The notes under the pieces: generated by a model
What the model was told of the DNA's origin: nothing
Database searches by the model: none
What the model saw: the letters and a program-made list of their open reading frames with translations, nothing else
Shown: in pieces, positions 2,538-63,741 of the stretch
How the letters are laid out: each line of letters starts with the position of its first letter
Position numbering within the stretch: position 1 is the stretch's first letter
NCBI RefSeq assembly: GCF_001316005.1
Contig: NZ_BBBJ01000003.1
Span: forward strand, 1-64,000
Direction of reading: 5' to 3'
Source: Vulcanisaeta distributa JCM 11217
Lineage (GTDB): Archaea; Thermoproteota; Thermoprotei; Thermoproteales; Thermocladiaceae
Length of the DNA stretch: 64,000 nt
Made by a program: the position numbers and the translations under genes

Positions 2538-3610
2538 ATGGAGAAACTCGTACTTACGTACTCAGATAAGTATTTGGATTATAATTTTGGCCCATGGCAC
2601 CCATTTAAGCCCCCATAGGGAGAAGAAGTTGGTTGAGTTGCTTAAGGAACATGGGTTGTTGGGTTCCTACGTTGATTTAGTGGAGCCTGGGCCCGCGACC
2701 GATGAGGAGTTAATGCTTGTTCACACTAAGGACTACATTGAGTATGTTAAGAGCGCGAGCATTAATGGTGTTGGTTATCTGGACTACGGCGACACACCGG
2801 CCTTCAGGGGGGGTGTTCATGAGGCGGCAGCCATTAGGGTTGGCGGTACATTACTCGTCACGAAACTCGTCAACGAGGGTAAGTACGTCCACGGCTTCAA
2901 TCCTGGCGGTGGCTTTCACCACGCTAAGCCAAGTGAGGCGGCGGGGGGGTTCTGCGTGTACAATGATATAGCCATAGCAGTTAAGTGGCTTAGGAATCAC
3001 GGCGTTAGGCGCGTGGCTGTGGTTGATGTTGATGTTCACCATGCTGATGGCACACAAGCAATTTTTAATGATGAGGACGTTCTTCTAATATCAACACATG
3101 GCTATGATGGCAGATTTTACCCAGGCACTGGCTGGATTGATGAGGACGGCGTGGGCGCTGGTAAGGGGGGGCTTAAGGTAAACATACCACTACCGCCTCA
3201 TACGGGTGATGACGTGTACTCCATGGTGATTGACGAAATAATAAAGCCCATACTTGATAGGTACTCACCAGAATTCCTAATACTTCAATTTGGCGTTGAT
3301 GCTCATACAGGTGATGAGCTCGGTATACTGGACCTAACCACAGAATCATACCTCAAGGTACTTAATACGGTTCATGAAATCGCCCATAGGTATGCCGGCG
3401 GTAAGTTGGTCTTAACCGGCGGTGGGGGGTTACGATGTTTGGAACACCGTCAAGACCTGGTTCCTAGCCACAGTATTCCTCACAGACCCCCCCAGTAGGC
3501 TCAGCCAGTACTCGAGTTATTTCGATAAAGAATCCACAAGAACTCCAGAGCGTTATTATGAGGAGGCGCTGTATGTAATCGATGCCGTGAAGCAAAGATT
3601 CGGCGTGTAA
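2538..3610 (+). CDS. histone deacetylase-like (AcuC/class II HDAC) amidohydrolase, frameshifted
   Basis: This is a zinc-dependent deacetylase of the HDAC/acetoin-utilisation superfamily; the archaeal substrate is uncertain. The start MEKLVLTYSDKYLDYNFGPWHPF follows a TATA box (2502-2514) by 26 bases. Catalytic parts are present: GGGFHHAKPSEA (His pair), VDVDVHHADGTQ (zinc ligands), FGVDAHTGDELG (third ligand) and the GGGGYDVWN loop. Two frame breaks occur: C5 at 2610-2614 (four fit) and G6 at 3424-3429 (five fit). Four runs of seven (2817, 2943, 3165, 3487) each add one residue, for example AGGFC where the family has GFC. A second deacetylase-like gene lies at 57945-58997. Confidence 0.85.
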
Positions 3611-3884: not shown

Positions 3885-4405
3885 TTATTTTTGCATTATC
3901 CTCCTCACCCTATCCTCAGCATTAATCCTACTCAGTACAGGCAGTACCCCCCCTGTTGCCACGAGACTCTGCCACGACTTATCACCCATAGCCATTAATT
4001 CCCTAATCCTCGTACCACTATAAACCTCCTTATTAAAGAGTGGCGTATTAAGGACCTTAACTCCACCATACTCGAGACATAGCCTAGTGAACTCGTCGTT
4101 TGTATATGCCACGTCAAAGGACGGGCATTGCTCGCGAACATAGGCATACCAGAGCGCTGAGTCGCCCTTTGTGTCAGGTACGGCGCAATAAAGCACCCTA
4201 TCAACCAGGTTTAACTCCCTAAGCATTGAGTGAAGCATCTCAATTCTCTCACCAACGGTGAATGGTTCCTAGGCGTAAATGACTCATTGGCAGACCCAAT
4301 GGCGATAACCAACTCATCATGCCTACCCAACAACCACTTAATCACCTCCTCATGACCCCCCCTATGCAATGGTTGAAACCTCCCAACGAACAACGCCCTA
4401 ACCAT
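3885..4405 (-). CDS. nicotinamide-nucleotide adenylyltransferase, frameshifted
   Basis: This nucleotidyltransferase makes NAD from NMN and ATP. The start MVRALFVGRFQPLHRG is the archaeal NMNAT signature. The family needs H-x-G-H; here a C7 run at 4356-4362 makes it HRGGH, one Gly too many. The second motif region (ELVIAIGSANESFTPRN, then PFTVGERIEML) is split by a missing base near 4267, so the enzyme appears as two ORFs. The C-terminus GTRIRELMAMGD matches the family ISSTxIR-type motif. The total is about 173 residues, the usual length. If the sequence were literal the active site would be damaged; I infer the functional gene has the canonical motif. Confidence 0.82.
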
Positions 4406-4489
4406 ACAGCACTAATTAGTGCAGAGCCATTTTATCTATTTCCCAGGGAGTAATTATGCTTAAATTAATGCGTAAGAAACGTAGTTAGT

Positions 4490-5470
4490 ATGGTTAGTAT
4501 CAGGGATACCGAGGTCGTGCTTGTTGAGGCTGTCCAACCCTTCGACATTAATTCCCTGGGTAATTTATTCGGTGGTAGAATGCTTGAGTGGATGGCAAAC
4601 ATAGGCACTGTAGCCGCCACCCGATTCTCAAGGGGGGGCCCCGCAGTCCTTGCCTATCTAGACAGGCACTTCTTCATAAGGCCCGTCAGACTCGGTGAAT
4701 TCGTGATACTCAAGGCTAGGGTTGAGTACGTGGGCACATCATCCCTTGAAATCAGGATAGAGGCTTGGAAGGAAAGCCCAGGTGGTAAGCAGGAATTAGT
4801 GACGATGACTACGGCATCCTACGTGGCTGTTGATGAGTATGGTGTCCCAAGACCCATAAATAACGTACTCGAGCCCGCTGAGGATGAGAAGCAGATCTAC
4901 GAGGATGCCAGGAGGAGGTATGAGGAGAGGAAGAAGAAGATTGAGGATAGGAAGTTCAAGAGGTTCGACCTAACTGACCCAACTAAGGGACTCAGGTGGC
5001 GCGTTGAGTCCAGCCGCTGGGCAACACCGTCAGACGCCTTCGTCGGTAATCTAGTGTCTGGTGGCAGGTTATTGGCGTGGCTTGATGAAATAGCTGGCCT
5101 ACTCGCGGCTAGGTACTCAGGCGGCGCCGCTGTGACGGGCTCCGTGGATGAGACGGCATTCTACGCACCAATTAGGGTTGGGGGGGATATCGTCACCGTG
5201 AGGGCTGGGATTACCTACGTTGGTAAGTCATCCATGGAGATAATGCTCGATGTAATTGCCGAAGGCACCTACGGCCAAGCCAGGCATGTATGCACGGCAT
5301 ACTACACGTACATCCACGTTGACAGTAGTGGAAGGCCAGCGCCCGTTCCTGAGTATGTTCCCAGTAATGATTATGAGAGGAGGTTATTCGAGGAGGGCGA
5401 GAAGAGAAGGCAGGTTAGGGATGAGGAGTTGGCTAGGATTAAGAGGATGTGGTTAAGCCCTAGGACTTAG
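4490..5470 (+). CDS. tandem hotdog acyl-CoA thioesterase
   Basis: This is a 326-residue protein with two hotdog domains of the acyl-CoA hydrolase (BACH/YciA-like) type, which cleave acyl-CoA to free acid and CoA. Domain 1 (about residues 5-125) holds NSLGNLFGGRMLEWMANIG. Domain 2 (about 165-300) repeats it as GNLVSGGRLLAWLDEIAGLLA. A charged linker rich in Glu, Arg and Lys lies between them. The frame is continuous, but G7 at 4632 and 5180 add a Gly (RVGGDIVTV where VGDIV would be usual). The 3' end overlaps the convergent rrp4 gene by about 11 bases. Confidence 0.85.
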   Translation: MVSIRDTEVVLVEAVQPFDINSLGNLFGGRMLEWMANIGTVAATRFSRGGPAVLAYLDRHFFIRPVRLGEFVILKARVEYVGTSSLEIRIEAWKESPGGKQELVTMTTASYVAVDEYGVPRPINNVLEPAEDEKQIYEDARRRYEERKKKIEDRKFKRFDLTDPTKGLRWRVESSRWATPSDAFVGNLVSGGRLLAWLDEIAGLLAARYSGGAAVTGSVDETAFYAPIRVGGDIVTVRAGITYVGKSSMEIMLDVIAEGTYGQARHVCTAYYTYIHVDSSGRPAPVPEYVPSNDYERRLFEEGEKRRQVRDEELARIKRMWLSPRT

Positions 5471-6186
5471 AGCTGGCTTTCCTAGCCCTGTACTGAGTCA
5501 CTATTGACCTAACCCTATCCGTCAACCCACTTGTGTGGCTCTCACTCTCTATTAACTTTATTACCCTCGCAACGAATGACTCATCCCCCAGGATCCCTAC
5601 ACCTAATCCAGACCCTACCGTTCTGACCAACAGTCACGTCACAATTAAGCTCCTCACTAAATATACTAACCATCGATCCCCTCCTACCAATCACCCTGGC
5701 AACCTTACTCGCGTCAATCTCAACCAGCGTCCCACCCTCAATCCTACCAAGCCTAGTCTCCTTAAGCGTCAGCGTGACTGGGTAATCCTTGGTTAAGTTG
5801 AAGTCTATTATCCTGGCGAGCACTATATCGCCGATACCCAACAAGTTCTTCAAGTCAACTGCCGTTAAATCAATGGGCTTGAGCGTGGCTTCCTGGACAG
5901 GCAAGTACGCTGAGTAAGGGGATTTAATGTCTATGACCCACCCAGTGAGCCCAATGTCAACAACGTAACCAATGACTATATCCCCCCCAACCCTAGGCTT
6001 ATAAATACCACTAAGCGGTATGACCTCTACGTCCCTCTCACCCCCCCTTATGTTTATGAGCCCAACAACCGCTGAGTAGGCCACATCACCATCCCAGTAA
6101 ATACTGCCACTAACGTTGTAGTCCCTGGTGGCCACGGCATCCCCCCCAGGCAGTACTATCTGCTTATCACTAACGTATAGCGGCAT
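5460..6186 (-). CDS. rrp4: exosome subunit Rrp4, C-terminal frameshift
   Basis: Rrp4 is the S1/KH RNA-binding cap subunit of the archaeal exosome. The N-terminal domain holds VLPGGDAVA (PGD expected), VEVIPLSGIYKPRVGGDIVIGYV (VGD expected), then the S1 segment and a KH region with GQNGRVWIRC. Three C7 runs (5992, 6041, 6141) each add a Gly, two inside invariant P-G-D or V-G-D turns. The obvious stop at 5581 follows a C5 run (5585-5589). With four bases the frame continues to a stop at 5460 with a further 39 residues (DESFVARVIKLIESE...), a usual Rrp4 tail. It sits downstream of SBDS, a common archaeal arrangement. Confidence 0.87.
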
Positions 6187-7759: not shown

Positions 7760-8614
7760 CCCCCCAGGACCTTATGGTCACGAGCACGTAGTGCTCAAGG
7801 GACTTAGGCGAAACCCTAATGGCGCCATCCCCAACCTCATCGAGAGAATCTACGAAGGAAAAGCATGAAGAACCAACCGAATGCACGGTCCATTACTCAT
7901 GGATGCGGGGGGGTACTCAACAACATACTTACCAGGCAGTTTATTAACGAGCTCACTAGGCTTACCACGCGATACTATCAAGCCACTATCTATTAGGAAA
8001 ACAATGTCCGATATTTGCTCAGCCTCCTCAATATAATGGGTCGTTAGAAATATCGAAGCCCCGCTATCACTATATCGCCGCAGTGAGTTCCAAACAACTC
8101 GCCTAGACGCCGCGTCGAGTCCTACCGTTGGTTCATCAAGAAATACTACCTCGGCATTCGAGGCAAGTATGGCAGCGACCAGGACCCTCCTGGTCATGCC
8201 ACCGGACAATTGATAAATTGGCGTGTTCCTAAGGTCCCACAGGCCAAGCTCCTCAAGTGAATCCCTGGTAGCCTTCCTCGCATCATTCCTAGGTAAGCCA
8301 CGAAGCAGTAAGTATGAGTAAACAAATTCTTGAGGAGTCATGTAGGATATGGGCCTGGCATCCTGTGGAATCACGGCAATCCTACGCCTAACCTCAGAGG
8401 CTTGGCTAACGACGTTGAAGCCAGCGACGTAGGCCTCGCCACCATGAGGCATCAGCTCGGTCGTTAATATCCTAATGAGCGTTGTTTTACCGGCACCGTT
8501 TGGGCCAAGTAATGTGGCTATCATGCCGTAGCCAACGTCGAGATCTATACCCCCCCTTAAAACCTCCTTGGCTCCAAAGCTCCTTCTTAATCCCTTAACC
8601 ATTATTGCCTGCAT
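7756..8614 (-). CDS. ABC transporter ATP-binding protein, C-terminal frameshift
   Basis: This is the ATPase of a drug/lipid-type ABC exporter. It has Walker A LLGPNGAGKTTLIRIL, Q-loop VIPQDARPISYMTPQEF, signature LSGGMTRRVLVAAI, Walker B AEVVFLDEPTVGLD and H-loop TTHYIEEAEQ. The first ORF stops at 7850; one missing base there restores a typical C-terminal domain (VDSLDEVGDGAIRVSPKSLE) and a stop at 7756 that overlaps the permease start by four bases, implying translational coupling. C7 at 8550 gives LRGGIDL where LxGIDL is usual, and G7 at 7907 adds a Pro. About 285 residues when joined. Confidence 0.85.
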
Positions 8615-17025: not shown

Positions 17026-19025
17026 CTACCTACCCAGTAGCGTTGATAATGCCTGGGCAGCCCCCCCATAAACATTCAACTGACCCAACCCAGTGACAGG
17101 GCTCCACTGACCCGGCACTGACCAGTATAGGCCATTATCGCCACCCAGCGTCGGAACATAGCTCCAGAGATCCCTGTGAAGAAGCTTGCCGATGTTATCG
17201 TGATGTTGCTAACATAAGCCTCGCTGGGCATGTAGTGGTAAATCAAGTACATGCTTGGTGCCAAGTCACCAATTGCGTAATTAACGCCAGTGCCGTATAG
17301 GTAGCTCTGTATTGTGGTTGTCATGCCTGCTGATAGAGGCGTCGCTAGGCTAGTACCGCCTATGAAGTACGGCGGTATAACGCCATTAAGGACTATGAAG
17401 ACGCCAGTGTATGGGTCGGCATCAGCGGCAATGTCCGGAACACCCCTCATTCCCGTAGTATTAAACCAAATCCCGAGGTCAGGCTCATACACGTACTGCA
17501 ACTCATAGGGCATACTGATCAACTTCTGGCCAGGTGTCTCTGGGAAGGTGAAGGAGTAACCACCACCACTACCCCATACTATGAATGGATTCCAGTTCCA
17601 AGCAGTCTCCATGCGCTGTGCATAACCACCAACAAACTGGGCAAACAACTCAGTACCACCAACACCGGTTACCCATGGGTCGCTGGCTGGATAAAATACA
17701 CTTGGTTCCATGGGCATGTTAAATGCGAACCAATAAACGTCATAGGCACCCCCCCAATCACCTGACGCCGCAAATGCGCCAATGCCCTCCGCGGCTGCCT
17801 GCATGAATATCTCGTCATAGCCATAGAGTAGGTTGTAACTTGGCGGTGGGTAATAGAACATGTCCTCCCAGGAGCCCCCCCAACTCATACTAATGAAGTT
17901 TGCCAGGGAGTTATTAACCACGTACTCCACATCAACGAATAAGTCATCACCAGAGTCCGGGGGGGCCACAACAAGGAGTATCTTAGCTCCAGGAGCCATA
18001 GTGTGTGAGTACTCAACATCCAACGCAGTCTCCCAAGACCAACCCTCAGCATAGGGCAGGTTATAAGGCGTTAATGTGGGCACGCCGGTTGGGTAAATGA
18101 CCTGGCATGAAGCAGGCGGCGGTAGGTAGAATATGCTGTCGAAAGTCGCCAGGTCCTGGCAGGCAATGTCCTGGTAAACATATTGACTGGCCAATGTGAA
18201 GTTAACATCACCAAAGGCATCAACAATGGCTATCGTCAAGCCCTGGCCAGAGTAACCACTGTAGAACAGCGGTAATTCATCATACATCCACTCAAGGCCG
18301 AATGGGAACCAAATCACCGCGTAACCCCACTCCTCCTGAGCACTCCTCAACGCATTGAGGGCGTAAACCATGCCCATGAGGCTCGGCCTAGCCATTAAGT
18401 ACTGAGCAATCAACTGAGCCATGTTAAGCCTGGCATACGCCGGCTTACCATTAACCCTAACCGCATTACCCAACAACTGACCTGGACTCAAGCCAAGGGG
18501 TAATGACTCCTTAACAATCATTGGCTGGTACTGAGGCGCCTTACTATGCACCGCAAAGTAACCCAGTGGTATACACTCCCCCCCAGCCAATATCCACTGC
18601 GTTATGTTGCTCGGCGCCGATTGTAGGGCTGTTAGGAAGTTGTCTACTGCCGATGCGTTGCCGGTGGCTTCTATGAGCATTGGGAATGTGTAATTAACGA
18701 CTAAGCCATACTCCTCAGCAAGACCCGTTATATAACTAAAGACATAACCAGGCGGCGAATACCACTCAGCAAACTCCTGAGGAGTAATGAAGTGGTGGAA
18801 GTAGGGACTTGAAGCATTGTAATACATCTGATTCAGTAGGTTTACGAGGCTCGACTCATTGCTTAGCCTAAGCCAGACAATCACGTGACTTGGGTTTGAA
18901 CCAGGCACGCCTGGGACAACCTCCTCACAAGTGAAGTACTGGGCTTGTTGGGCGTGAACCGTAAGCGCCATCACCGCCAACACAGTTATGAGGGACAGAA
19001 CCACATAGGCTAGTTTCCTCGTCAT
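17026..19025 (-). CDS. S53 family (kumamolisin/sedolisin) acid serine-carboxyl protease, frameshifted at C-terminus
   Basis: This is a secreted acid protease. The start at 19025 gives the signal peptide MTRKLAYVVLSLITVLAVMA ending near HAQQ, about 27 bases after an AT-rich TATA box. The N-terminal pro-domain (residues about 30-200) is followed by the catalytic domain: Glu/Asp in EGWSWETALDVEYSH, oxyanion Asp in AASGDWGGAYD (SGDxGA expected) and catalytic Ser in GGTSLATPLSAG. One missing base near 17168 restores the calcium-site tail GGD-NGLYWSVPGQWSPVTGLGQLN and a stop at 17026. Runs of seven at 17061, 17749, 17875, 17959 and 18578 add residues. About 666 residues, a usual length. Confidence 0.9.
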
Positions 19026-35800: not shown

Positions 35801-38800
35801 CATTCGATGAGGACCTAGTGATATACTATGAGCAGTTCTCAGTGCCAGTAACAACAACGTGCGGCCAGGTATTCCCAATCACCGTGCCAGTTGAGAATCT
35901 ACACATAGTAGTCACTGACCTGAAGGGCAATGTCCTTAGCAGCCAGCCAGTCTACCCATGCGCCACGCCGAGCTACTGCCCAAGCTTCTACTACAACGTG
36001 ACGCTGGTGCTCGATGACCAGTACAGCCCGTACTACCTATCCAGCCAGTGGCTGGTATTCCCAACCTACTGGTTGAACCTAACTGACTTCAGAGTTGTTG
36101 GGCAGACCTGGATGCAGCCTGAGTATGAGGCCCTGGAGAGCACGTTCCAGTCACTGATAGCCGCTGACCAGGCGGCGTACCAGAGCGGCATGATTAGTCT
36201 ACAGCAGTTTGTCGAGTGGTACGTGGGCAACTACAGCTACTACACATTAGCTGCGCTGCTGGCTAACTATAGTACGTCATCACCATTCGCCATATTCACA
36301 TTCCCATCAATAGTGCCTCATGAGGGTACAATATTCGTTAGGTTATTCATGCCAGCCAGGCATTCCAGATGAAGGTGTACTACCTAGGCCAGGAGGTCTT
36401 CAACGAGATAGTGCCAGTACCACCACCCAATGAGAACGTGATAGTCACGCCGACGGGTAAGGTGGAGTACACCACAAGCCCAGTGACTGTCTACATAGCC
36501 GGGCAGGCAGTGACAATACCGCCAAACGGCACGATAATAATCGAGACCAGCGTATACCCAGTAACCTTCAACATAACCAGCAAGAGCGGCATATACCAGT
36601 GGGCAACACCTACCTAGGACTAACATTCACAGACGTACTCTATAGGGAGTACGTGATGCCACCATACTCAGCACTAAGCACATCAATAGCCTTAACGTAC
36701 ATCAACAACACGGCGTATCCATTTAACGTGACGAGCTTCGGAATACTAACACCATCAGAGCTTGAGTTGCTGACGAAAGGCACGTACTCGATAATTGAGA
36801 CCTACCAGACGACAACCACGAACTACAACCCAGAGGCTGTGGCTAGTGAGGAGCCAATCAATAATATCTACTCACTGGCTGGCTACGTACTGCCAGACCT
36901 GATGGGCTTCTTCGTTAACTCCAGCAGCCCAACAACAAGCCTAACGCCACTATACATGACTAGCATATACCCGAACGTGTTTAGCACGACTCCATCTGCC
37001 GTAGCCTTCAACCTAACAATGGGCATACCGATATATGCCCACGTCGTCACATCAATAATCGCAACGGCATACCCGAATGACACATTCCTATACGCGGCTG
37101 AGCCAGCCTACAGTGAGTATAGGCTGTTAGTTAATGAGTCATTGATGGAGCCCGTAACGCCATTACCTGCGGTCATTGACGGCTCACCAACCACACTAAC
37201 GGCCAGCCCGCTAACCGGCTTATACCCAACAACTTACGCGGTTGAGGTTACTCAGTCAGAGAGCAGTGAGGTTAACTTCACGTACTATGCAGTGCCCAAC
37301 CTAGCCAGCTATAGGCTGTGGGAGGCCTACGTGAACGCCACTGGAATGACGTCAGTCACCAACGCAACAATAGGCATATACGCCGCTAATGCCACCGGCT
37401 GGTACTACGTGTACAGCGTTAACGTAACATCAACATTCCAGCAGGCAATGGTAAGGACAGTGCCGCTATACGTATACCTGAACTACGGCGAGATAACAAG
37501 CGTGGTTCAGTCACCGACTGAGGTTGCGGTTGTGCTCTACGTATACGGCAGCGGCACCTACTACATACTACCGCCAGCTTACTACGGCGATCACACGCAC
37601 ATTGAGTACCCACCAATAAGCAGTGGCTTTGGCGGTATTGTGCACCACTACACTGAGAACCTATACACGGTCGCGACAGGTCCAATGGCAGGAACAACAC
37701 AGACAGTAACCTTCACGTACCCAACGGTTAACGCCACGTGGATGCCATACTTTGGAAGCCCACTGACCGTTGTAATACCAATACCAAGCAGTGGTGAGGC
37801 GGTGTTCGACATACCGTGGTGGGCACCAACGACAGGCGCCTACGGCACTAGGATCGCTAGGTTCTGGGTGATGGGCACAACGAGCACGCAGAACATCGGC
37901 TACGGAAGCATAACCACGGTCTACACGCCAAGCCAGTACACGCCGACAGCTCCATCACCACTGCCTGAGCTAGCCATAAGCAGCTATGTATTGCTGAACT
38001 ACATAACACCAAGTGGCGGAGCACCGAGGTATTCACGGGCGAGATACCGCCGGGCGTGGTTGTGAGTAATGGCACGCTATACATGACGGCTATTGGCGCC
38101 GGCACTGGCGGCACATCAGCCCCCCCAATGCTCATGTACGACACGTTGTTCCCAGAGGATCTATGGAACGTGACTATGAGCGCAATACAGGCGGTCAGCG
38201 GCGTATATAACATTAGGACTACAGCGCTGGAGAGTGTTGAGGCGTATCTACAGAACTCCGCCTCATTCCCAATATACTTCACGCTAAGCGGCTTCACATA
38301 TAGCAACTCCGGCATGCAGTTCACAGTGTCAATAACGCCGAAAGTACTAGTACTGGAGCCACAGACTAGCGAGATTATTGAGGTGCCGGTGCAGTACATC
38401 TATGGCAGCAGCTATGAGTTTACATCAACGTGGTGTGACCTAGGCAACTACACACCATTTATACCAGACTTTGGATTACAGTACTCAGTCTACTACAGGC
38501 CACCCAACGCCACCTTCTACTTAGCCAATGGAACAGCACTGAGCTTCATAGCAAACTCCAGCGGAGTTTACATAGAGACGCCCACTGAAACTCTGTATTA
38601 CAGCCCATTAGTCAACCTAACAGGGCTTGAGGCACCGCTTGTGCCAACCACCTCATACACGATTAACTTCACCACGCTATACGCCGGCAGTGAGCTAATG
38701 CAGTTGAACACGTCAGTTAAGATACCGCAGTTTGGAGAGAGTGCCAGGAGTAACGTGTACTATGAGTCGTACTACAACGCTACGAGCTCAATAGTCGGTG

Positions 38801-40464
38801 CTGACTACTTTGTGCATGATAACTTACCATACCCAACATATAGTACGCTGGCCAGTGGCGAGCATGTGTACTGGAACATAGCTGGCTACGTTGGTACGCA
38901 GACAATGCCGGAGATACTACCGAGTACAAGTAGCGACACAGAGGTTGAACTTGCATTCACATTCAGCTACCCATCAATACCGCTAGCCGCAATTGAGGAC
39001 TGGGACGGCAGGCCACTACCCAACCAGGTGATTGTTGAGTATGGAACAGGCACAACGCCAGCGCTCTGCGCAGGCACTGCGCCAATAGCCATAGACTTCA
39101 GCGGCGTTAATGGACATCTACTGCAGCCGCTGCCAGTTGGCACTAGGACCGTGGTGTACTGGTACGACAGCTGCCTACTCTACACAATAACCAGCGGCGC
39201 CTACCCATACATAGACATATACGACACCAACATAGCCACCGACGTAAGCACGCTGGGCAATGCCTTCACAGCAACTTCAGTTGAGACCCACGTGGTGCCA
39301 GCCACCATATACCTAAAGAGCGCCACTGGAACCGGAATACCCGGCGCCCTAGTTATTGTGTTTGACCAGCCAACAATGGGTAATGAATTCCTAGCCTTCA
39401 ACGTAACCGGCACCGACGGCTCAATAACGCCTGTCGACTACAGGATATACCCACCAGCCACAAGCCAGCTACCACCAACCAACTACTACCTAGTTGCCTA
39501 CTACGCGGCCAACGGAACACCACTGACGTGGCAGGAGATACAGCAGGCTATAAGCAGCCACTCAACACTATACCTAGTGCCTGTGTTTGAGAACACCTTC
39601 AGCATACAGAGGACTGTGACGGCCACTGAGGCCATAGAGTCCTTCACATTAAGCAACATACTGACCACGGCTAACATAGTCGTTGTACTATCGAGCTTCG
39701 GCCCAGCGCCAGGCGTTACCCTGAGCTACAGCGTGTCTGAGCCTGAGTGCCCGGTGACGATAACTGCCATATCACCGGCATCAACGATAGTTGGTTACAC
39801 GTATAGCGTGACGCCGCTGATGCCATCACCAAGTGTTTGCAAGCCAGTCACTGCAGTAACTGGCACTGGAACGACCAATGCCCAGGGCCAGATAACAACG
39901 GCGACTTTCGTAACGCCCGTGGCTCCATTTGCGGCCCAGATAACGATAACCGTACAGTCATGGAAGGGCATACCACTGGGCTACACCTACACCTACTACG
40001 TAACGAGTAGCAACGCAACAACACCAATACAGGTATCGGTACCGGCCGTCGAGTTAACAGTGACTCCAGTAAGCGCCAGTGGTGCGCCATTGACGACGCA
40101 GGCAACGGTCAATGTGACATGCGCCGGTGTTCCAATCGCCAGCGGCGTTGGTCAGCAGACCGTGGTCGTTCCAATACCGAGCAGTGGGTCAATAACGTGC
40201 ACAATAACTGGCTATAGCTATGGTAAGACCGCGAGCACGACGGTGACGCTGACGAGTAGTGAGGCTGGGCAGACGATAACGAGGACGTTGACGATACCGG
40301 TGAGCGGCTACTACATACCTGGCGTGGGCTTCGTGCCTGTGAGCACGTTCATACTGCTGGCTGTGGTGATAATAATCATAATAATACTGATAGTGATACT
40401 GCTGATTGAGTACAGCAACTGGAGGAGAAGGAGACTAGCCGGCTTGCTGGGCCCGCCGAAGTGA
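32812..40464 (+). CDS. giant secreted, membrane-anchored surface protein (about 2,550 residues), frameshifted
   Basis: The start MAGLGIKAGLIKQLKPLTVI leads into a signal peptide ending near LLAQ. The body is Tyr/Thr/Ser/Pro rich beta sequence with very many N-x-S/T sites, as in S-layer or adhesin proteins. The C-terminus has a beta domain with VVVPIPSSGSITCTITGYSY, then PVSGYYIPGVGFVPV, a long helix (ILLAVVIIIIIILIVILLI) and a basic tail, so it is anchored in the membrane. Frame breaks lie at G6 33675, C5 33937, G5 34715, and near 35330, 36362, 36596 and 38035 (last four missing one base). Its anchor is duplicated at 57266-57769. Likely the main surface-layer component. Confidence 0.78.
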
Positions 40465-42659: not shown

Positions 42660-43937
42660 TCATAGAATCTTCCTAACTAACTCGGCAAGCCTATCGACGA
42701 ACTTATCGAAGGTTATGTCCCTAACCCTATCCAGGCTCCTTATTGAGTAATTACTCCACGCCCTGGAATCGGTCAAAAGCTTGGCCAAGGCATTAACCGC
42801 CTCGTCGACATTCTCGTAACCAAGCCCAATCTCACCATTCAGAGCCAAGTCACTCCAGGCGCCGCCGGATTTATGCACAACGACTGGCAAGCCCCTAGCC
42901 ATGGCCTCCGCAACCGCAATACCCCCCCAGTGCTCGTTGATTGTGGCGTGAAGGAAGGCCCTAGCCCCCCCATCCATGGCCTCGTTAATCTCAGCCCTAG
43001 GGGCATTAAGCCTCAGGTAAACCTGGTGCTCACTATTTAACTCCCTAAGTACGGAACCCTCACTAACAACCTTAACATTAAGACCGCTTCTTCTAGCTAG
43101 ATCGGCAACCCTATTAACGTAATTTAATTGAGTCCTGGTGGTTGCGCCACCGAAAATAATCAACTTGGCGTTGGGTATCTCCTTAATGAGCCTGGGCATT
43201 AACTCAGTCACAACCCAGTGATAGCGCTTCTCCTCACTAAACCTACCAAGCATGACGACTAAGTTACCCCTCTCCTCAAACGCCCTAACGGAGCCCAGGA
43301 TACTAATGTTCGGCGGTATCGGTGGGTTAAGTACAATGGGTTCCTCACCATAAACCATCTTAGCCACACTGGCGGTCCACCTCGAATTAGTGAGGACAAG
43401 GTCAGCATCATGGAATGGATTCTCCCTCAAGTACCTAGGCAACAGCCTTGTGAAAACACCCCCCCAGTAAACATTCATTGGGAACCTACCATACCTCTCC
43501 ATTATGTACGGATCCTCACCATAAGCAAGCCCACTACCCCCCCTAAACCTAGGATCAACAACAACCTCAAGTGGAAAGTGAATATACTCAATAATTCTAA
43601 GCCCCATACTCCTATACCTAACCAATGGCTTATACGTCTCATCATCAATAAATAAAGCCCTAACGTCATACCTCGACAATAGCTTTACGGCTGGTCTCCA
43701 CATATAAAGCCTGGTCCACAACCCAAAGGCCTTAATGTTAATGGGCATTAACGTATGAACCTCATACTTAGAAATGTCAATGCCGTACCAATCAACGTAC
43801 CTAGCTGGGTCAAACTTAAACGTACCAGTGAGTATGGGCTTAAGTCCCATCTTATCCAGGGCAACTGCCGCAGAGGCACAGACGAGCTGTCCACCACCCG
43901 GCGTTCCCCAGTAACGATGCGCCACTATAGATTGCAC
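42660..43937 (-). CDS. family 4 glycosyltransferase
   Basis: This is a GT-B (GT4) enzyme of 425 residues. The donor-binding part contains LVVMLGRFSEEKRYHWVVTE, AKLIIFGG, a family motif NEHWGGIAVAEAMARGLPVV and HKSGGAWSD. The N-terminal domain starts HRYWGTPGGGQLVCASAAVA. The usual E-H-x-G-I motif has an extra Gly from the C7 at 42922; the paralogue at 45874 has NEPFGIVVVEAMA. C7 runs at 42965, 43459 and 43537 also add Gly. The architecture is like Alg11-type mannosyltransferases. It probably acts in surface N-glycan assembly. Confidence 0.85.
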   Translation of the reverse strand: MQSIVAHRYWGTPGGGQLVCASAAVALDKMGLKPILTGTFKFDPARYVDWYGIDISKYEVHTLMPINIKAFGLWTRLYMWRPAVKLLSRYDVRALFIDDETYKPLVRYRSMGLRIIEYIHFPLEVVVDPRFRGGSGLAYGEDPYIMERYGRFPMNVYWGGVFTRLLPRYLRENPFHDADLVLTNSRWTASVAKMVYGEEPIVLNPPIPPNISILGSVRAFEERGNLVVMLGRFSEEKRYHWVVTELMPRLIKEIPNAKLIIFGGATTRTQLNYVNRVADLARRSGLNVKVVSEGSVLRELNSEHQVYLRLNAPRAEINEAMDGGARAFLHATINEHWGGIAVAEAMARGLPVVVHKSGGAWSDLALNGEIGLGYENVDEAVNALAKLLTDSRAWSNYSIRSLDRVRDITFDKFVDRLAELVRKIL

Positions 43938-63465: not shown

Positions 63466-63741
63466 TTATAGTATTAAATCCACGGTATCGCCAAGGGCCT
63501 GCCCAGGCAATCCTCGCCTAAACCTAACAAGTAACTGACCGTGCTTACCCCCCCATACCCTAAGTACACTCCCTATTATCTCAGTCCCTGTTTTTGATCT
63601 CCACACGACCTTGGCATTAATGAACTTAGCGGCGTCTATCGCGGTTTCAACGCCCGGCACTATGATTATAGCATCCCTTGAGTAACCAATAGTGCCTCTC
63701 CTTATTGAGTATATCCTAGCCTTAACTGTCCTTGCCTGCAT
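63466..63741 (-). CDS. 50S ribosomal protein eL33 (L35Ae)
   Basis: The start MQARTVKARIYSIRRGTIGY at 63741 fits the family better than an upstream ATG. It has IIIVPGVETAIDAAKFINAK, VVWRSKTGTEIIGSVLRVWG and RFRRGLPGQALGDTVDLIL, the L35Ae signature. The C7 at 63548 gives RVWGGKHG where one Gly is usual. About 92 residues. Confidence 0.9.
   Translation of the reverse strand: MQARTVKARIYSIRRGTIGYSRDAIIIVPGVETAIDAAKFINAKVVWRSKTGTEIIGSVLRVWGGKHGQLLVRFRRGLPGQALGDTVDLIL

Follow-up and report, generated by a model that had tools for sequence, protein, structure and literature searches.

Extra Glycine Residues in Conserved Motifs of a Draft Vulcanisaeta distributa Genome: Very Likely an Artefact of G/C Homopolymer Inflation

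Conserved motifs with one residue too many

Why should conserved motifs of an archaeal genome hold an extra Gly, each at a run of seven G or C? The question was raised by a preliminary description of the window, the whole 64,000-nucleotide stretch of Vulcanisaeta distributa JCM 11217 DNA analyzed here, which allowed three answers: an error in the written DNA, a correction of the products after transcription or translation, or an unusually tolerant cell. The extra residues are present in the deposited sequence and are foreign to the relatives. Eight motifs have one residue more than their aligned relatives, namely HRGGH, PGGD and VGGD of Rrp4, VGGD of the ORF at 4490-5470, AGGFC, NEHWGGI, VWGGKHG, and LRGGIDL. 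We have very little doubt that the extra Gly is an artefact of G/C homopolymers systematically lengthened in the draft assembly rather than biology, and the real genes of the organism almost certainly carry the canonical motifs.

The HRGGH motif of NMN adenylyltransferase (NMNAT) lies on the reverse strand, where its run, seven G as coded, occupies 4356-4362. Three complete Vulcanisaeta genomes (G008, G004, and G010) have HRG-H at this site, with a run of 4 in G008 and of 5 in G004. The same lengths are found in these two genomes at a second G7 of the gene (3947-3953, reverse strand). Extra Gly apart, the deposited gene lacks a single open frame, since a one-base gap relative to all three genomes at 4263-4265 (reverse strand), which is not at a G/C 7-run, splits it into two ORFs in the window. 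This gap, a separate error, again points to the quality of the sequence. The Rrp4-like exosome subunit (5581-6186, reverse strand) has three extra residues; by tblastn, G008, G004, and G010 have one fewer at each of PGGD, RGGERD, and VGGD. The corresponding C7/G7 runs, all on the reverse strand, are at 6141-6147 (LPGGD, with LPG-D in relatives), 6041-6047 (RG-ERD in G008, with a run of 4 there), and 5982-5988 (VG-D in relatives, again with a run of 4 in G008). The C7 runs that had been reported at 4356 and 6141 are thus where they were said to be, and the Rrp4 VGGD run, given as 5992, belongs at 5982-5988.

The remaining motifs are scattered over the window and lie on both strands. On the forward strand, AGGFC is encoded by a G7 at 2943-2949 in a deacetylase-like ORF (2587-3498) whose relatives read AG-FC. 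The ORF at 4490-5470, also on the forward strand, looks like an acyl-CoA thioesterase and has two such runs, a G7 at 5180-5186 that encodes VGGD, where relatives have one residue fewer, and a G7 at 4632-4638 that is a run of 4 in G008. The C7/G7 runs of the other motifs are on the reverse strand. LRGGIDL (8550-8556) belongs to an ABC ATPase ORF (7850-8614) and is LRG-IDL or LRG-VDL in relatives; NEHWGGI (42922-42928), in what had been described as a GT4 protein, is NEHWG-I in G008 and G010; and VWGGKHG (63548-63554), from the protein described as eL33, is VW-GKHG in the same two genomes. GDWGGA (17749-17755), from the previously named S53 protease, is present in the window as well, but it has no aligned relative among the relatives' loci that were compared.

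Run lengths in the window and in complete genomes

The lengths of all G/C runs in the window form an unusual spectrum. There are 1295 runs of 3, 71 of 4, 24 of 5, and 12 of 6, followed by 141 of 7, 29 of 8, and none longer than 8. Base composition alone would give about 4 runs of 7 instead of the 141 observed. A/T runs fall off smoothly with length. When another 140 kb of the same genome (G000) is added to the window, the counts for lengths 3 to 8 are 3996, 221, 74, 40, 402, and 62, and no G/C run exceeds 8 in the 204 kb. The complete relatives are exemplified by 160 kb of G008, in which the counts for lengths 3 to 7 show a plain decay (3039, 511, 59, 7, and 0). The deficit of 4- and 5-runs in G000 is about equal to the surplus of 7- and 8-runs, which suggests that 4 has become 7 and 5 has become 8. 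C runs and G runs both show the step from 4 to 7, whichever base flanks them, and a check of flanking-base dependence turned up nothing strong enough to explain which 4-runs stay 4. One part of the window, 36001-40000, has a single G/C run of at least 4 in 4 kb despite 52% G+C; this looks like a different composition rather than the artefact.

Alignment of the window with stretches of the three complete Vulcanisaeta genomes allowed the change in length to be read directly, run by run. G/C runs of 3 in the reference are unchanged in the window in 444 of 455 cases for G008, 264 of 275 for G004, and 344 of 358 for G010. Reference runs of 4 are read as 7 in 32 of 54, 11 of 20, and 16 of 30 cases, respectively, or about 57% overall. 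With any of the three genomes as reference, a change of length is rare in A/T runs and in G/C runs of 1-3. The same mapping applied to a second V. distributa draft, G003, gave 4 to 7 in 46 of its 85 4-runs relative to G008. Length changes are therefore confined to G/C homopolymers above a threshold, with runs of 1-3 essentially unchanged and runs of at least 4 changed, which is the behavior expected of a systematic over-call. Under such an over-call, a true run of 4 would be written as 7 over half the time, and true runs of 5 and 6 would mostly be written as 7 or 8. Because 4 to 7 adds three bases, most frames remain intact with one residue added to the protein, and this residue is Gly where a G run is read as GGG. 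Gly-containing motifs consequently seem to hold an extra Gly.

A different reading of the same runs is that G4/C4 really expanded to G7/C7 in vivo in these lineages and that the cell either tolerates the result or corrects it in the RNA or the protein. The runs do stand in the deposited sequence and are mostly frame-keeping, as this reading would have it, but the spectrum outside long frames is similar (9 runs of 7 and 6 runs of 4), and frame selection would not operate there. We regard such an expansion as highly improbable, and the RNA genes and the distribution among genomes also speak against it.

RNA genes and distribution among genomes

A search for 16S rRNA in G000 returned no match, and the 23S rRNA gene was used for comparison. 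Relative to G008, the G000 23S gene has only 11 mismatches in 2233 columns, yet it contains 139 inserted bases, 137 of which fall in G/C runs of at least 4. Runs of 4 in the reference are written as 7 in 25 of 48 cases, runs of 5 as 7 or 8 in 15 of 20, and runs of 6 as 7 or 8 in 4 of 5, and not one A/T run is changed. These counts bear on the proposal that runs slip at random in the cell and that frame selection lets only +3 changes survive in genes. Most changes are indeed +3 and frame-neutral, but the 23S gene has no reading frame and shows the same +3 dominance, so frame selection cannot be the cause. Slippage would also be expected to affect A/T runs and to leave a continuum of lengths extending beyond 8, and neither is seen. 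We consider this proposal to have next to no chance of being correct. ARAGORN found no tRNA in the window, and the tRNAs examined come from elsewhere in G000. In their intron hairpins, GGGG stands opposite CCCCCCC in one gene and GGGGGGG opposite CCCCC in another; inflation thus strikes one helix arm and not its partner. Runs are inflated in rRNA, tRNA, coding, and noncoding DNA alike, independently of function, and the inserted bases in 23S rRNA and the unequal hairpin arms both count against a real expansion.

The distribution of the pattern was assessed by counting exact C7/G7 runs on both strands. G000 (2,076,046 bases in 19 contigs, completeness 67.27%) has 3857, G003 (V. distributa JCM 11216, BBBI01) has 4803, and G020, a draft of another genus in the same family with the same excess of 7-runs, has 7958. 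By Rrp4, G000 is closest to Vulcanisaeta genomes. The ten other members of this genus have 0-5 such runs; among the remaining genomes of the phylum that were searched, the count reaches at most 340. Completeness is 67, 67, and 47% for G000, G003, and G020, whereas the finished Vulcanisaeta genomes reach 99%. The affected genomes are three drafts in two genera, one of them a JCM draft (BBBI01), with clean sister species, and the excess does not follow phylogeny. Within Vulcanisaeta, the pattern is absent from all other species but one, itself a draft with the same fingerprint. Two genomes of the genus of G020, G014 and G017, have 43 and 119 C7/G7 runs, somewhat above Vulcanisaeta, which is possibly natural. 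Two JCM drafts of Vulcanisaeta, JCM 14467 and JCM 16159, show no 7-run peak, have Rrp4 in pieces, and are 81% and 63% complete; these probably contain other indel errors.

A real expansion would have to be missing from ten other Vulcanisaeta members and to have arisen separately in each of two genera of the family. In its fullest form, the claim would be that three strains of one archaeal family have truly lengthened G4/C4 to G7/C7 throughout their genomes, and that their proteins, tRNA, and rRNA tolerate this or are corrected as they are expressed. This is more improbable still, and if true it would overturn known tolerance limits of rRNA and of active sites. Of the three answers first allowed, an error in the written DNA is the one borne out by the length mapping, the restriction to G/C runs, the 23S rRNA, the tRNAs, and the clean sister species. 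Correction after transcription or translation and an unusually tolerant cell are both unneeded, and neither accounts for the 23S rRNA and the tRNAs, for the limitation to G/C, or for the distribution within the genus.

Origin of the inflated runs and comparison with known systems

We think it fairly likely that the artefact arose at the base-calling step. A flow-based (Ion Torrent PGM) origin of G000 is suggested by its sister draft with the same fingerprint, BBBI01, whose accession prefix is near-identical to that of BBBK01, a V. souniana draft stated to be from Ion Torrent PGM (PMC9872577). The same V. souniana strain later yielded a complete genome of 2,432,148 bp by Illumina and Nanopore sequencing (PMC9872577), and G010, which has this very length, contains 5 C7/G7 runs. 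A 2014 paper on JCM draft genomes also used Ion Torrent PGM, with Newbler 2.8 (PMC3974947). Nothing on accession BBBI01000000 or on frameshifts in drafts of Vulcanisaeta was found in the literature searched. In Ion Torrent base calling, homopolymers are recalibrated from a certain length onwards, and this would fit the sharp onset at 4. Flow sequencers are known more for errors of scattered size than for an abrupt jump from 4 to 7. Two other JCM drafts, BBDM and BBDN, lack the 7-run peak, which counts against our reading. In the mechanism that we propose, base calling in a flow-based run, probably through homopolymer signal calibration for longer runs, would over-call G/C runs, and the over-called lengths would then be carried into the consensus.

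Assembly or consensus calling, in place of base calling, is a possible though rather doubtful source of the artefact. Indifference to the flanking base, for C and G alike, is consistent with it, as is the use of Newbler on sibling JCM drafts (PMC3974947), but other JCM Vulcanisaeta drafts, possibly assembled alike, do not have the peak. Regardless of the step at which base calling or assembly introduced it, the inflation has consequences for data hygiene only. At least three drafts that represent their species in the genome collection used contain false run lengths by the thousand, many of them appearing as extra residues, and the genes, rRNA, and completeness estimates of these drafts are unfit for claims about motifs, RNA editing, or recoding.

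Two known systems invite comparison. Phase variation by mononucleotide tracts also places long G/C tracts in genes, but phase-variable tracts are few and gene-specific and have a spread of lengths. Here, exact 7-runs number in the thousands genome-wide, are nearly fixed in length, extend to rRNA and tRNA, and are missing from the ten other Vulcanisaeta members; this candidate was rejected. The homopolymer indels of flow sequencers (Ion Torrent and 454) typically show a broad plus-or-minus-one spread, in contrast to the sharp change from 4 to 7 and from 5 to 7 or 8, limited to G/C and with a threshold of 4, that is found here. In other respects the resemblance is close: in both, errors of length occur only in homopolymers, are systematic and so survive in the consensus, and leave broken frames and low apparent completeness.
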